From Candidatus Binatia bacterium (GTDB lineage: Bacteria; Desulfobacterota; Binatia; UBA9968; JAJDTQ01), in the NCBI GenBank assembly GCA_022823055.1, contig JAJDXX010000047.1, forward strand, positions 1 through 49,875: a DNA stretch of 49,875 nucleotides. Direction: 5' to 3'. Below are positions 10,860-16,397 of the stretch, piece after piece (the first letter of the stretch is position 1; each line of letters begins with the position of its first letter). A program made the position numbers and the translations under genes. The notes under the pieces are model-generated. The model saw only the letters and a list, made by a program, of their open reading frames with translations, did no database searches and was not told the origin of the DNA.

Positions 10860-11708
10860 TCAGCGTCTTACCGAAATGTCTTGGACGGCCTCGTTGAGGG
10901 AGCCGGTGCGGTAGCCCTGGAGGTCGATGCTGACGTAGGTGAAGCCGGCGTCCTTGAAGCGCCGAAGGATCTCCTCGCGCACGTCCGGACGCATCAGCTT
11001 GTCGAACTCGTCCGGCGCCACCTCGATGCGCGCCAGCTCGTCGTGGTAGCGCACCCGGTAGACGCGGAAACCCAGTTCGCGGAGCACCCGCTCGCAGCGG
11101 TTCACCTGGGTGAGCTTCTCGGGGGTGATGGCGGTGCCGTAGGGGAATCGGCTGGAGAGGCACGCCAGGGCAGGCTTGTCCCAGACCCGGAGCCCCATGC
11201 GCCGGGCGGCCTCGCGGATGTCGGCCTTGGTGAAGCCCAGTTCGTCCAGCGGGGAGCGCACGCGGCGCTCGCGTGCCGCTTTCCGGCCGGGACGGTGGTC
11301 GCCGCGGTCGTCCAGGTTGAAGCCGTCGAGCACATGCGGGATGCCCAGGGCCGCGGCCTCGTCGATGGCCTTGCCGTAGAGCTCGGTCTTGCAGAAGTAG
11401 CAGCGGTTGACAGGGTTGGCGGCGTAGCGCGGATCGTCCAATTCGTAGGTGTCGATGAGCAGGTGCCGGGCGCCGATGCTCTCCGCCAAGCCGCGGGCGT
11501 CCGCTCCCTCCTCCGGCGCGAGGCTGGGAGAAACCGCCGTGAGCGCCAGGGCGTTGTCCCCGAGGACGTTCACCGCCTCGGCCAGCAGGTAGCCGGAGTC
11601 GACGCCGCCGGAGAAACAGACCACCACGTGGCCCATTTCCCGCAGCAGCGCCTGAAGCCCGGCAACCTTGCTCGTCAGCGGGTCAGCGTCCGCCATGCCG
11701 TTCCACAT
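10860..11708 (-). CDS. larE: ATP-dependent sacrificial sulfur transferase LarE
   Basis: The 282-residue protein has a PP-loop ATP-pyrophosphatase motif S-G-G-V-D-S-G at 33-39. It also has the LarE block D-K-P-A-L-A-C-L-S-S-R-F-P-Y-G-T (Cys183) and N-R-C-Y-F-C-K-T-E-L (Cys103, Cys106). LarE inserts sulfur into the nickel-pincer cofactor of lactate racemase and related enzymes. In some members the conserved Cys is sacrificed; in others a three-cysteine [4Fe-4S] cluster carries sulfur. The Cys103/Cys106/Cys183 set here fits the cluster type. No larB, larC or larA is in the window. The start at 11708 has GGAGAGAA directly upstream; Met5 is an alternative. It is the last gene of a minus-strand group that includes a probable selenoprotein. 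Confidence 0.9.
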   Translation of the reverse strand: MWNGMADADPLTSKVAGLQALLREMGHVVVCFSGGVDSGYLLAEAVNVLGDNALALTAVSPSLAPEEGADARGLAESIGARHLLIDTYELDDPRYAANPVNRCYFCKTELYGKAIDEAAALGIPHVLDGFNLDDRGDHRPGRKAARERRVRSPLDELGFTKADIREAARRMGLRVWDKPALACLSSRFPYGTAITPEKLTQVNRCERVLRELGFRVYRVRYHDELARIEVAPDEFDKLMRPDVREEILRRFKDAGFTYVSIDLQGYRTGSLNEAVQDISVRR

Positions 11709-11721
11709 TTCTCTCCGTCAT

Positions 11722-11849
11722 TCCCGCCCCCGAATCGTCATTCCCGCGAAAGCGGGAATCCAGGGGTGGAGAGGGGCCGAACGAGCGTATTCCCCACCGC
11801 CCCACCCCTGGATTCCCGCTTTCGCGGGAATGACGATTCGGGGGCGGGA
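11722..11849. repeat. Palindromic repeat with perfect 48-bp arms
   Basis: The left arm (11722-11769) and right arm (11802-11849) are exact reverse complements over 48 bp, around a 32-nt centre. Each arm contains the smaller palindrome ATTCCCGCGAAAGCGGGAAT followed by CCAGGGGTGG. The element lies between the GST-like gene and larE. On RNA it would fold into a very strong hairpin and could terminate or protect the upstream transcript. The inner boxes resemble the dRS3-type repeats of Neisseria; a mobile MITE-like origin is possible. Confidence 0.92.
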
Positions 11850-11880: not shown

Positions 11881-12444
11881 TCACGGCGTTGACTTGACCC
11901 TCGGCCGTTCCAGCAGCCGGTCGCGCCAGCGCTTCACGTTGGGCAGGTCCTCGGTGATGGACGTCCGGTAGTGGTCCTCGCGGGTGAAGAACGGGATGTA
12001 GGTGATGTCTGCCAGCGAGTAGTCGTCGACGATGTAGTCCCGCCCGGTCATGCGCTCTTCCAGCGTCTCCAGGTGTTCCCGCAGCCGCTTCTTGTTCTTC
12101 TCCACCTCGTGGTCGTGGCGGATGTTGCCCGCGGCGGCCTGGAGCCGGGTGTTGCAGAAGTCGATCCAGATGCGCACCACGGCGCGCTTCGTCAGGTCCT
12201 TGGGCATCAGCGGCACATCGGGGAACTTCTCGTCCAGGTACTCGTTGATGACCGCGGACTCGTAGATCACCGCGTCCCCGTCCACCAGCACGGGCACCTT
12301 GCCGTACGGGTTGAGGGTGACGAGTTCCTTCGACTTGTTCTTGAGGTCGCACTCGACCAGATCGTAAGGGATGTCTTTTTCCGCCAGGACAAGCCTTGTC
12401 CTGTGGGCGTACGGTCAAGGACCGTAGGACAGTAGTCGCAACAT
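11881..12444 (-). CDS. Glutathione S-transferase-like selenoprotein candidate (in-frame UGA at codon 10)
   Basis: Read through one UGA, this gene encodes 187 residues: M-L-R-L-L-S-Y-G-P-U-P-Y-A-H-R-T-R-L, a thioredoxin-fold N-domain (to about residue 80) and a helical GST C-domain. The UGA (12417-12415) sits exactly where omega/beta GSTs and SspA-like proteins have the catalytic residue of C-P-Y-A-H-R. Downstream in the same frame are N-P-Y-G-K-V-P-V-L (cis-Pro) and Y-E-S-A-V-I (glutathione contact). The start at 12444 has AAGGAGG 6 nt upstream, so initiation before the UGA is well supported. A stem-loop fitting the bacterial SECIS model follows the UGA. A caller that treats UGA as stop would start at 12297 and lose the active site. 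It lies 79 bp downstream of a small cupin. The alternative is a nonsense mutation or sequencing error. Confidence 0.82.
12380..12417 (-). promoter_or_regulatory. Candidate bacterial SECIS element (selenocysteine insertion)
   Basis: Directly after the UGA (12417-12415) the mRNA can form a perfect 8-bp stem, CAGGACAA with UUGUCCUG (12403-12385), closed by a GGC loop. The loop begins 20 nt after the UGA and its first two bases are G. These values fall in the range described for bacterial SECIS elements: loop 16-37 nt from the UGA, with a G in the first two loop positions. Extra pairing of CGC with GCG below a small bulge is possible. SelB binding is inferred. Confidence 0.72.
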
Positions 12445-12523
12445 GTCGTCCTCCTTCGGCTCCGCGGCCCGCTCCTGGGCCGGCCGCCGTTCGGGCGGGC
12501 TCGAAACCCGCCCCTGATCAAGT

Positions 12524-12910
12524 CTACGCGATGATGGGCTCCCTCACCGGGATGTGGCTGGGCCGCCGGGGCACCCGCGTGCGCGGCTTGCCGTCCACCT
12601 GCGAGTTGCCCGCGCCGAAAAGCAGCAGACGCCCCTCGCCCGTGTTGCAGAGCTGGTACGGCTGGCCCGATTGCAGCAGGATCGTGTCGTGCGGGTTCAG
12701 GACGAACTCGTCCTCGGGCGTCCGCACCGTGCACTGGCCCTCGAGGACCATGAAGATGTGGTCGTCGTTCTCGTGGTAGTGCATGTCGTCCTGCATGTTC
12801 TCTTCGCAGTTGATGGTCCAGTAGTAAGCCAGATCCGTGCGCCACAACGAAAGATGGCGGATCTCCGGGTTGGCCTTGGCCTCCTCGATGGGGTTCTTCA
12901 CCTCGTACAT
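12524..12910 (-). CDS. Small cupin-domain protein
   Basis: The 128-residue single-barrel cupin carries M-H-Y-H-E-N-D-D-H-I-F at about 43-53, a variant of the first cupin motif with three His and an acidic residue. The second motif region, L-L-Q-S-G-Q-P-Y-Q-L-C-N-T-G at about 78-91, has lost the usual His, so metal binding may be altered. AGGAGG lies 8 nt before the start. It is the middle gene of a minus-strand group with a double-CDGSH protein 34 bp upstream and a GST-like selenoprotein candidate 79 bp downstream. That placement suggests a role in redox or thiol metabolism, but the substrate is unknown. Confidence 0.83.
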   Translation of the reverse strand: MYEVKNPIEEAKANPEIRHLSLWRTDLAYYWTINCEENMQDDMHYHENDDHIFMVLEGQCTVRTPEDEFVLNPHDTILLQSGQPYQLCNTGEGRLLLFGAGNSQVDGKPRTRVPRRPSHIPVREPIIA

Positions 12911-12944: not shown

Positions 12945-13193
12945 CTACTTGTTCGCCACCAGCTTGCCGTGGGTGCCGTCGCAGTAGGGCCGGGTCTTCG
13001 ACCGCCAGCACGAACAGATGGCCATAGTCCGGGGCCTGTCCACGGTGATCTCCCGCGGCGTGATGGACGTCACCTTGTGCGAGCCGTCACAGAACGGAAA
13101 GTTCTGGGTGCGCCCGCACATGCAGTAGAACCGGCTCGCGGACTCCTGCCGGACGATCACCGGCTCGATCAGATCATCGTACGCCAAACCCAT
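12945..13193 (-). CDS. CDGSH iron-sulfur domain protein with two motifs
   Basis: The 82-residue protein contains two CDGSH units, Y-C-M-C-G-R-T-(6)-F-C-D-G-S-H at about 24-40 and I-C-S-C-W-R-(5)-Y-C-D-G-T-H at about 58-74. Each supplies three Cys and one His for a labile [2Fe-2S] cluster. Double-CDGSH proteins of this size resemble the mitochondrial Miner2 type and bacterial soluble relatives, thought to work in redox sensing or Fe-S transfer. The start at 13193 is chosen for AGGGAGG at 7 nt; an upstream in-frame start at 13259 would add 22 unrelated residues. It is first in the minus-strand group running to larE and is divergent from the complex I operon. Confidence 0.9.
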   Translation of the reverse strand: MGLAYDDLIEPVIVRQESASRFYCMCGRTQNFPFCDGSHKVTSITPREITVDRPRTMAICSCWRSKTRPYCDGTHGKLVANK

Positions 13194-13394
13194 GCGAGGT
13201 CCTCCCTTGCTGTGATTGCGCTCTGGCTCGGCCGGGCACCCGCGCAATGACCGCGCCATTGACGATGGAGCATGAAATATATACTCCAGTTTGCGGTGGA
13301 GGGCCAGACGAAAGCCGCGGCCGGGACGGTGGCCGCTCTCCGGGCCGGCCTTGAGGACCGCGAAGCCTGAAACACCTTGGAACGGCCCGGCAAG

Positions 13395-13486: not shown

Positions 13487-13894
13487 ATGGGTAGCGAGAC
13501 GCTCTGGCCGCTGGGTCTGTACTTTCTGATTGCTCTCGTTGTGGCGGGCAGCATGATCGGGTTGTCGTTCGTCCTGGGCGAGCGGCACAAGGACCGTGCC
13601 ACCGGCCAGCCCTACGAGTCCGGTATCCTCTCCACCGGGTCGGCGCGCGTGCGCCTGTCGGTGAAGTTCTACATCGTCGCCATGCTCTTCGTGATCTTCG
13701 ACCTCGAGGCGGTCTTCATCTTCGCCTACGCCGTGGCATACGAGGAGGTGGGCTGGGCCGGCTACGCCGGCATGGTGGTGTTCGTGGCGATTCTGGTGGT
13801 GGCGCTGATCTACGAGTACCGCATGGGCGCGCTCGACTGGGAGCCCATCCGCCTGAGGCGGGCCAAGGCCGGTCGGGAAAGGATCGGCATTTGA
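13487..13894 (+). CDS. nuoA: NADH-quinone oxidoreductase subunit A
   Basis: The 135-residue membrane subunit has three helices, at about 9-30, 60-82 and 89-110. The conserved loop P-Y-E-S-G-I before helix two and the F-D-L-E-A-V-F motif near 72-78 are diagnostic of NuoA/ND3. NuoA lies at the junction of the peripheral and membrane arms of complex I. No strong RBS precedes the ATG at 13487. The stop overlaps the start of nuoB by one base, which implies translational coupling. It is the first gene of a 13-gene operon. Confidence 0.95.
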
Positions 13895-14523
13895 TGCAAT
13901 GGTCGCTGTCCAAACCCCAGGCTGCCGAGCCGGGGAAAGGTGCCTTCGACGACGCCATACGGCGCCTTCTGGTAATGGCGCGCCTCGAGGACCTGGTGCG
14001 GTGGGGGCGCAAGAACTCCATGTGGCCGTTCCACTTCGGGCTCTCCTGCTGTTTCGTGGAAATGGCCACGAGCCTCACCAGCAAGTTCGACGTCGCCCGC
14101 TTCGGCGCCGAGGTCATCCGCGGCACGCCGCGGGAGGCGGACGTCATCGTGATCGCCGGCACCCCCTTCATCAAGATGGCGCCGGTGGTGCGGCGCCTGT
14201 ACGAGCAGATGATGGAGCCCCGCTGGGTGATCTCCATGGGCGCGTGCGCCAACTCCGGCGGCATGTACGACATCTACAGCGTGGTCCAGGGGGTGGACAA
14301 GATCCTTCCCGTGGACGTGTACGTGCCGGGCTGCCCGCCCGCTCCCTGGGCCTTCCTGGAGGCGTTGACCCTGTTGCAGAAGGCCGTGGGCAACGAGCGC
14401 CGGCCCCTGAGCTGGATGGTGGGTCCCCAGGGCGTGGAGAAGGCGGTGCTGCCCGCCATGCGCGACGTGAAGCGGCCTGACCGGGTTCGAGCCACGAGCC
14501 TGCGTACGCCGGACGAAGTCTAG
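13894..14523 (+). CDS. nuoB: NADH-quinone oxidoreductase subunit B
   Basis: The 209-residue peripheral-arm subunit carries the N2 [4Fe-4S] cluster next to the quinone site. The ligands are the tandem Cys52-Cys53 (S-C-C-F-V-E-M), Cys118 (M-G-A-C-A-N) and Cys147 (V-P-G-C-P-P). The start is the ATG at 13894, overlapping the nuoA stop; a TTG three bases earlier is also in frame but unnecessary. A 125-bp gap separates it from nuoCD, the longest gap in the operon, and no gene is seen there. Confidence 0.96.
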
Positions 14524-14648
14524 GGTTCCCGGCAAGTATTCCCCGGCAAGCCGATGAGCACGGTTGCTTCGTTCTTGAGCAGGAATGACCGAATGATCCA
14601 ATCGGCGCCGCGCTCGTACACCGAGGAGAAGGGCAGGGTTTGCGGACG

Positions 14649-16397
14649 ATGAGTGACGCCCCCGCCGCGGTCGCCGAGCTCGAAGGCCGCTTCGGCGCCG
14701 ATGCCTTCACGGTGCAGGAGACCCGTTCCGGCTTTCCCACCCTGTGGACGTCACGGGACAACCTCCCGGCTTTCCTGAAGTTCCTCAAGACCGAGGTGCC
14801 GCGCCCCTTCGGCACGCTGTACGACCTCACCGCCATCGACGAACGCTTCCGCCAGAAGCGCGACGGCCAGCCCGAGAGCGATTTCACCGTCCTGTATCAT
14901 TTGCTCTCCTACGAGCGGAACGAGGACCTGTGCATCAAGGTGCCGCTGTCGGACGGCGACGCCGCGTTGCCCACGGCCACCGGCCTGTGGCCTTCGGCCA
15001 ATTGGTACGAGCGCGAGGTGTGGGACATGTTCGGCGTGCGCTTCGACGGACACCCGGCGTTGCGCCGTATCCTCATGCCGCTTACCTGGGAAGGCCACCC
15101 GCTGCGCAAGGAGCATCCGGCCCGGGCCACGGAGATGGGACCGTTCCAGCTTCCCGACGAGCGCCAGGAACGCGAGCAGGAGGCGCTTCGGTTCCGCCCG
15201 GAAGACTGGGGCATGAAGCGCACGCGCGAGGGTACGGACTTCATGTTCCTGAACGTCGGCCCGCAGCACCCCGGCACCCACGGGGTCATCCGCATCATCC
15301 TGCAGCTCGACGGCGAGGAGATCGTCGACTGCCTGCCCGAGATCGGCTTCCACCACCGGGGCGCCGAGAAGATGGGCGAGCGCCAGTCGTGGCACTCGTT
15401 CATCCCCTACACCGACCGCATCGATTACCTCGGCGGAGTGATGAACAACCTCGCTTACGTCCTGTCGGTGGAACAGTTGGTGGGCATGGACATCCCTGAC
15501 CGCGCACAGGTGATCCGCGTGATGATGTGCGAACTGTTCCGCATCGCCAGCCACCTGGTGTGGTACGGCACCTTCGCCCAGGACGTGGGTTCCCTTTCCG
15601 CTGTCTTCTACACGTTCAACGACCGGGAGCGCATCTTCGACATCGTCCAGGCGGTGTGCGGCGGACGCATGCACCCGAGCTGGTTCCGCATCGGCGGCGT
15701 GGCCCACGACCTGCCCAAGGGCTGGCAGGCCATGGTGCGGGACTTCGTCAACTACATGCCGGACCGGCTCGCGGAATACGACAAGATCGTGATGCAGAAC
15801 CGCATCTTCAAGGCCCGCACCCAGGGCATCGGCGCCTACACCGCGGAAGAGGCCATCGACTGGGGCGTCACCGGCCCCGGCCTCCGGGCCTGCGGCTACG
15901 AGTGGGACTTCCGCAAGAAGCGGCCCTACTCGGGCTACGACCAGTTCGATTTCGACGTTCCCATCGCCCGGAAGGGCGACTGTTACGACCGCGCGCTGGT
16001 GCGCGTCGAGGAGATACGCCAGAGCTTGCGCATCATCGACCAGTGCCTCAAGAACATGCCCGCCGGCCACTACAAGTCGGATCATCCCCTGGCCACGCCG
16101 CCGCGCAAGGAGCGCACGATGCACGACATCGAGACGCTCATCAACCACTTCCTCAGCGTGAGTTGGGGGCCGGTGATCCCGGCCGGGGAATCCTTCGTGG
16201 GCATCGAGGCCACCAAGGGCAACAACGGCTACCGCCTGGTGAGCGACGGCGGCACCATCCCTTACCGGGTGCGCATCCGCACGCCGTCCTTCGCCCACAT
16301 GCAGATGATTCCGCTCATGAGCCGCGGCGTGATGGTGCCGGATCTGCTGGCGATTCTGGGGAGCATCGACTTCGTCCTGGCGGACATAGACCGATGA
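14649..16397 (+). CDS. nuoC: NADH-quinone oxidoreductase fused subunit C/D
   Basis: The 582-residue protein is a natural fusion of NuoC (30 kDa subunit, about 1-180) and NuoD (49 kDa subunit, about 200-582), as in E. coli. The NuoC signature [11 protein letters not shown] and H-P-x-L-R-R-I-L-M-P lies near 120-145. NuoD begins at [11 protein letters not shown] and includes G-F-H-H-R-G-A-E-K near 235, whose His lines the quinone pocket. The ATG at 14649 is used; an in-frame TTG at 14640, closer to an AAGGGCAGGG stretch, is a real alternative. The fusion normally goes with the 13-gene operon type, which matches what follows. Confidence 0.95.

Follow-up and report, generated by a model that had tools for sequence, protein, structure and literature searches.

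We identified, on a contig of a Candidatus Binatia bacterium (JAJDXX010000047.1, assembly GCA_022823055.1), an unannotated gene that we take, with a probability of about 0.95, to be a genuine bacterial selenoprotein gene. It encodes a GST-like protein (Sec-GST) with an in-frame UGA at the active-site position; this interpretation, put forward by the first-pass annotation, is supported by a TGA that is conserved among the orthologues, by a covarying hairpin downstream of it, and by the sel genes found in the same genome. The reading frame, the Sec/Cys pairing, the conservation of the SECIS element and the presence of the sel machinery are points that the sequences themselves establish. The window (the whole stretch of DNA that was analysed) is 49,875 nucleotides long. 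The host is a sponge-symbiont-type bacterium, and the MAGs of its genus relatives carry the label Candidatus Binatia or Deltaproteobacteria.

Gene structure and reading frame

The Sec-GST gene runs on the minus strand from 12444 to 11881 and comprises 187 codons, including one UGA that is predicted to specify selenocysteine. Nine sense codons (MLRLLSYGP), beginning with the ATG at 12444-12442, are followed by the TGA at 12417-12415; the residues after this UGA begin PYAHRTRLVLAEK... / PYAHRTRLVLAEKDIPYD..., and the frame runs on to the terminal TGA. The motif around the first UGA is U-P-Y-A-H-R. The features of the locus are as follows.

11881..12444, minus strand: Sec-GST gene, with an ATG start and a UGA stop at 11883-11881 (AlphaFold mean pLDDT 96)
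12450..12456, minus strand: ribosome-binding site AAGGAGG, 5 nt 5' of the ATG; a GGAGG-type site is kept in the genus
12415..12417, minus strand: in-frame UGA (codon 10), predicted to be read as selenocysteine and aligned with the active-site Cys of Cys-type GSTs
12385..12403, minus strand: predicted bacterial SECIS element, with an 8-bp stem (CAGGACAA/TTGTCCTG) and an apical loop GGC, inside the coding sequence
11881..12297, minus strand: truncated 138-aa ORF with a GTG start (table 11), which a standard caller would report

The ribosome-binding site, ATG, nine sense codons, UGA and GST frame to a stop that had been described for this locus are thus all present in the sequence, and the strand, which the description did not name, is the minus strand. 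It had also been claimed that a standard caller would report a 138-residue protein lacking its catalytic half, and this is what translation with table 11 gives: the ORF from the GTG at 12297 has 138 aa and contains neither the Sec nor the greater part of the thioredoxin-like domain.

The predicted SECIS hairpin

In SelB-dependent recoding, a hairpin recruits SelB together with Sec-tRNA. The first-pass annotation had reported a perfect 8-bp stem with the loop GGC at the right distance from the UGA, and such a stem is present at 12403-12385, 11 nt to the 3' side of the UGA. In the window, the 19-nt sequence of the hairpin is found at a single site (0 expected). The folding energy of this single sequence is only mildly unusual (z of -1.5 to -1.9); the case for the hairpin rests on comparative evidence. 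Among 40 distinct sequences from two GST clades (see below), 97.5% of the stem cells are paired; with the second clade counted in, three of the eight stem pairs show double changes (C-G/G-C/U-A, G-C/A-U, and A-U/G-C/U-A). There are 24 double-changed stem cells, compared with 6.0 expected from shuffles, and 0 in the slid-partner controls. The conserved element is a covarying 8-bp stem 11 nt after the UGA, with a small apical loop that contains G (GGC or GGA). In addition, three codons within the stem and loop are frozen, R15 (AGG), R17 (AGG) and V19 (GTC) being identical in 36 out of 36 orthologues; the mean synonymous diversity of conserved columns outside the hairpin codons is 0.49 in the same orthologues, and AGG makes up 4.7% of the Arg codons in the long ORFs of the window.

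Selenocysteine machinery

The sel genes had been named as a check on the selenoprotein reading, and selA, selB, selC and selD were all found over curated cut-offs in the same genome (G000). The profile scores are 579 bits for selA, 387 bits for selB and 373 bits for selD; the tRNA-Sec (selC) scores 73 bits and has a TCA (UCA) anticodon. The genes for SelB, SelA and SelD adjoin one another on contig C247, and since selD (L018, G000:C247:6066-6992) has an in-frame TGA of its own (AAG-U-AAKLGPADL), the SelD of this genome is probably itself a selenoprotein.

Across the order, SelB is over the cut-off in 29 of 35 genomes, and tRNA-Sec in 25 of 35. Three genomes speak against the selenoprotein reading: in the MAGs of G010 (rated 100% complete) and G029, the UGA-GST is present and none of selA, selB and selC was detected; similarly, the MAG of G020 has the UGA-GST and selC, with neither selA nor selB detected. 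It is plausible that one assembly gap accounts for the absent sel genes of G010, because selB and selC are close together in G015 and G022, which belong to the same genus; the alternative is a loss of the sel genes.

Conservation of the UGA and alternative readings

Codon 10 is TGA in all 36 full-length orthologues that we collected across genus and order (52-97% identity, independent assemblies), so the UGA is not an error. The homologues in the eight other genomes of the genus are 80-97% identical, and each has a single TGA, at this codon; those in the order-level genomes are 52-70% identical, and the same holds for nearly all of them. The terminal stops of the 36 orthologues are a mixture of TGA, TAG and TAA. 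Opposite the UGA, the alignment has Cys in the SspA structures 4qq7 and 6v91 and in the Pseudomonadota homologues L062 and L063, so that the proposed comparison of homologues at codon 10 returned Sec or Cys. The UGA had been said to replace a residue of the redox motif rather than a random one, and its homologous position is indeed Cys in the Cys-type GSTs. Among the other GST copies listed for the same genome none has an internal stop, and a scan of viral contigs gave no instance of the UGA-plus-hairpin signature.

The GTG-started short protein might be the real product, with the nine-codon frame acting as a leader peptide and the hairpin regulating translation, and table 11 does yield such an ORF. 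However, codons 11-49, which come before the GTG of the caller's ORF, show strong protein-level conservation within the genus (dN 0.041, dS 0.477; dN/dS about 0.09), the residues that they encode complete the thioredoxin-like fold in the AlphaFold model, and the UGA stands precisely at the catalytic position, all of which makes this reading very improbable. There is a similarly slight chance that the UGA specifies some amino acid other than Sec, by suppression or under a reassigned code: any read-through product would restore the frame too, but TGA ends 22 of the 31 long ORFs in the window and the Sec-GST gene as well, a SelB-type hairpin and all of the sel genes are present, and the homologous residue is Cys. 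Hardly credible is a pseudogene, in which a normal Cys-GST would have acquired the UGA by nonsense mutation or would only seem to have it through a sequencing error; one substitution from TGC or TGT is enough to give a lone in-frame stop, but the same TGA recurs in every orthologue down to 52% identity and purifying selection flanks it on both sides. We rejected these readings on the 36 conserved TGA codons, the use of TGA as a stop, and the purifying selection, and we retain the reading of codon 10 as selenocysteine.

Phylogenetic distribution

The 36 order-level Sec-GSTs form one supported clade in the tree (98/96) and, as far as their sequences tell, the Sec form is fixed across the whole bacterial order. 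The expectation that a Sec-GST of this type would be rare did not hold, since the Sec form is general in this order. A second Sec clade consists of 11 sequences from another family of the class (35-40% identical, with the motif U-P-[FY]-A-M-R); it adjoins the first clade in the tree, with two long-branched Pseudomonadota Cys proteins between them, and has its hairpin at the same place. A third Sec clade of three sequences (L117, L119, and L123) comes from a third family, has the motif U-P-[YW]-A-R-K, and is separate in the tree. Its predicted 8-bp stem (GCCCTTTT/AAAAGGGC in L117), with the loop GGA, is located 24 nt after the UGA, compared with 11 nt in Sec-GST; because of this position, selenocysteine may have entered the GST fold independently in at least some cases. 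The Ser and Cys relatives fall outside the Sec clades.

Fold and predicted function

Sec-GST contains the Pfam domains PF13409 (GST N-domain, 7e-22) and PF00043 (GST C-domain, 3e-11). The AlphaFold model has a GST fold, with a thioredoxin-like N-domain and a helical C-domain; a strand at residues 2-6 is followed by a loop that holds residue 10, and then by a helix at residues 11-22. The closest PDB structures, both by sequence and by fold (Foldseek), are SspA and tau/omega GSTs, several of them with bound glutathione, and Sec-GST has conserved P51, E62, and S63, the usual thiol-binding positions of GSTs. The earlier assignment to an SspA/omega type is therefore right as to similarity (to SspA, tau, and omega GSTs) but not as to SspA itself: the SspA equivalog model gives 101.9 bits against a curated cut-off of 314, and on this score we ruled out an SspA-type transcription factor. 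The alignment of the Sec-GST clade has no conserved counterpart of the PHP motif of E. coli SspA. Sec-GST shares the fold and the conserved thiol-binding site with SspA and the omega/tau/DHAR-type GSTs, and SspA has Cys at the position of the Sec; it differs from all of them in that Sec replaces Cys or Ser, and the identity is about 30%.

We infer that selenocysteine is inserted in vivo. SelB with Sec-tRNA(Sec) would bind the hairpin 3' of codon 10 and direct the insertion at the UGA, and the second UGA of the gene would serve for termination. The product would be a 187-residue GST with selenocysteine just before helix 1, at the site of the catalytic thiol in Cys-type GSTs (omega, SspA-like, DHAR-like). 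By analogy with these enzymes, the selenolate would attack an oxidised substrate and might then be regenerated by glutathione or gamma-glutamylcysteine; we see about an even chance that its role is that of a reductase or peroxidase of the Cys-GST type, dependent on a thiol, and this is the likeliest role. A glutamate-cysteine ligase is encoded in the genome (TIGR01436 over the cut-off; L155, G000:C74:18354-19229), and the canonical glutathione synthetase model, TIGR01380, has no match in this genome.

Seleno-GSTs prepared by chemical means acquire a strong activity as glutathione peroxidases (PMC9944854). These semisynthetic enzymes have selenium at the GST active site, as Sec-GST is predicted to have, and they show that glutathione peroxidase chemistry is possible on this scaffold; their selenium was introduced in the laboratory by chemically changing a Ser, whereas the Sec of Sec-GST would be genetically encoded.

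Genomic neighborhood

The genes next to Sec-GST are as follows.

12524..12910, minus strand: cupin-domain gene, upstream on the same strand, 79 nt before Sec-GST
10860-11708, minus strand: LarE sulfur transferase
12945-13259, minus strand: CDGSH iron-sulfur protein
13487-16397, plus strand: nuoA, nuoB, and nuoCD, divergent

The gene order (cupin gene upstream, larE downstream) is kept within the genus and not outside it. The cupin gene is kept in most members of the genus, is missing in G001, and was not found near Sec-GST outside the genus; on this distribution we ruled it out as a partner of Sec-GST. Between larE and Sec-GST there is a 60-nt inverted repeat (11722-11849), whose arms are 92% complementary and separated by 8 nt. 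Its core, TTCCCGCGAAAGCGGGAATCCA, has six occurrences in the window (0 expected), and the repeat resembles a dispersed palindromic element.

Relation to known GST-like selenoproteins

The kind to which Sec-GST belongs is not new: it was already listed in 2005, when the Sargasso Sea yielded four GST-like selenoproteins under COG0625 (Zhang, Fomenko and Gladyshev 2005, PMC1088965), and was listed again in the GOS data (12 sequences) and in catalogues of 2022 and 2026 (PMC2398784, PMC9312934, PMC13188914), the last of which calls such selenoprotein families largely uncharacterised. Like the COG0625/PF13409 family (PMC1088965), Sec-GST is a bacterial GST selenoprotein without a UxxC motif, and both were recognised from Sec/Cys pairs together with a SECIS element downstream. 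That family was catalogued from marine metagenomes (e.g. PPR62222.1), and Sec-GST is tentatively placed in it by COG0625/PF13409. Our literature search found no study that joins Binatota with a selenoprotein, and no direct study of natural seleno-GSTs. Sec-GST is a well-supported addition to the GST-like selenoproteins known since 2005, and its lineage-wide distribution was not found described in this search.

More tentatively, and in a form that we consider rather doubtful, the Sec-GSTs could be an old, vertically kept group, with one order-wide clade, a second clade with a homologous SECIS element, and a third with its SECIS element elsewhere, in which Sec appeared, or was restored, on more than one occasion; as enzymes, they may be natural seleno-GST peroxidases, possibly working with gamma-glutamylcysteine instead of glutathione.

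In each genome of the lineage, standard callers would cut Sec-GST to a fragment that has no active site, and a lineage-wide selenoenzyme would therefore be missed. The 36 orthologues, together with the two further Sec clades, make this uncharacterised GST-like selenoprotein family directly testable.
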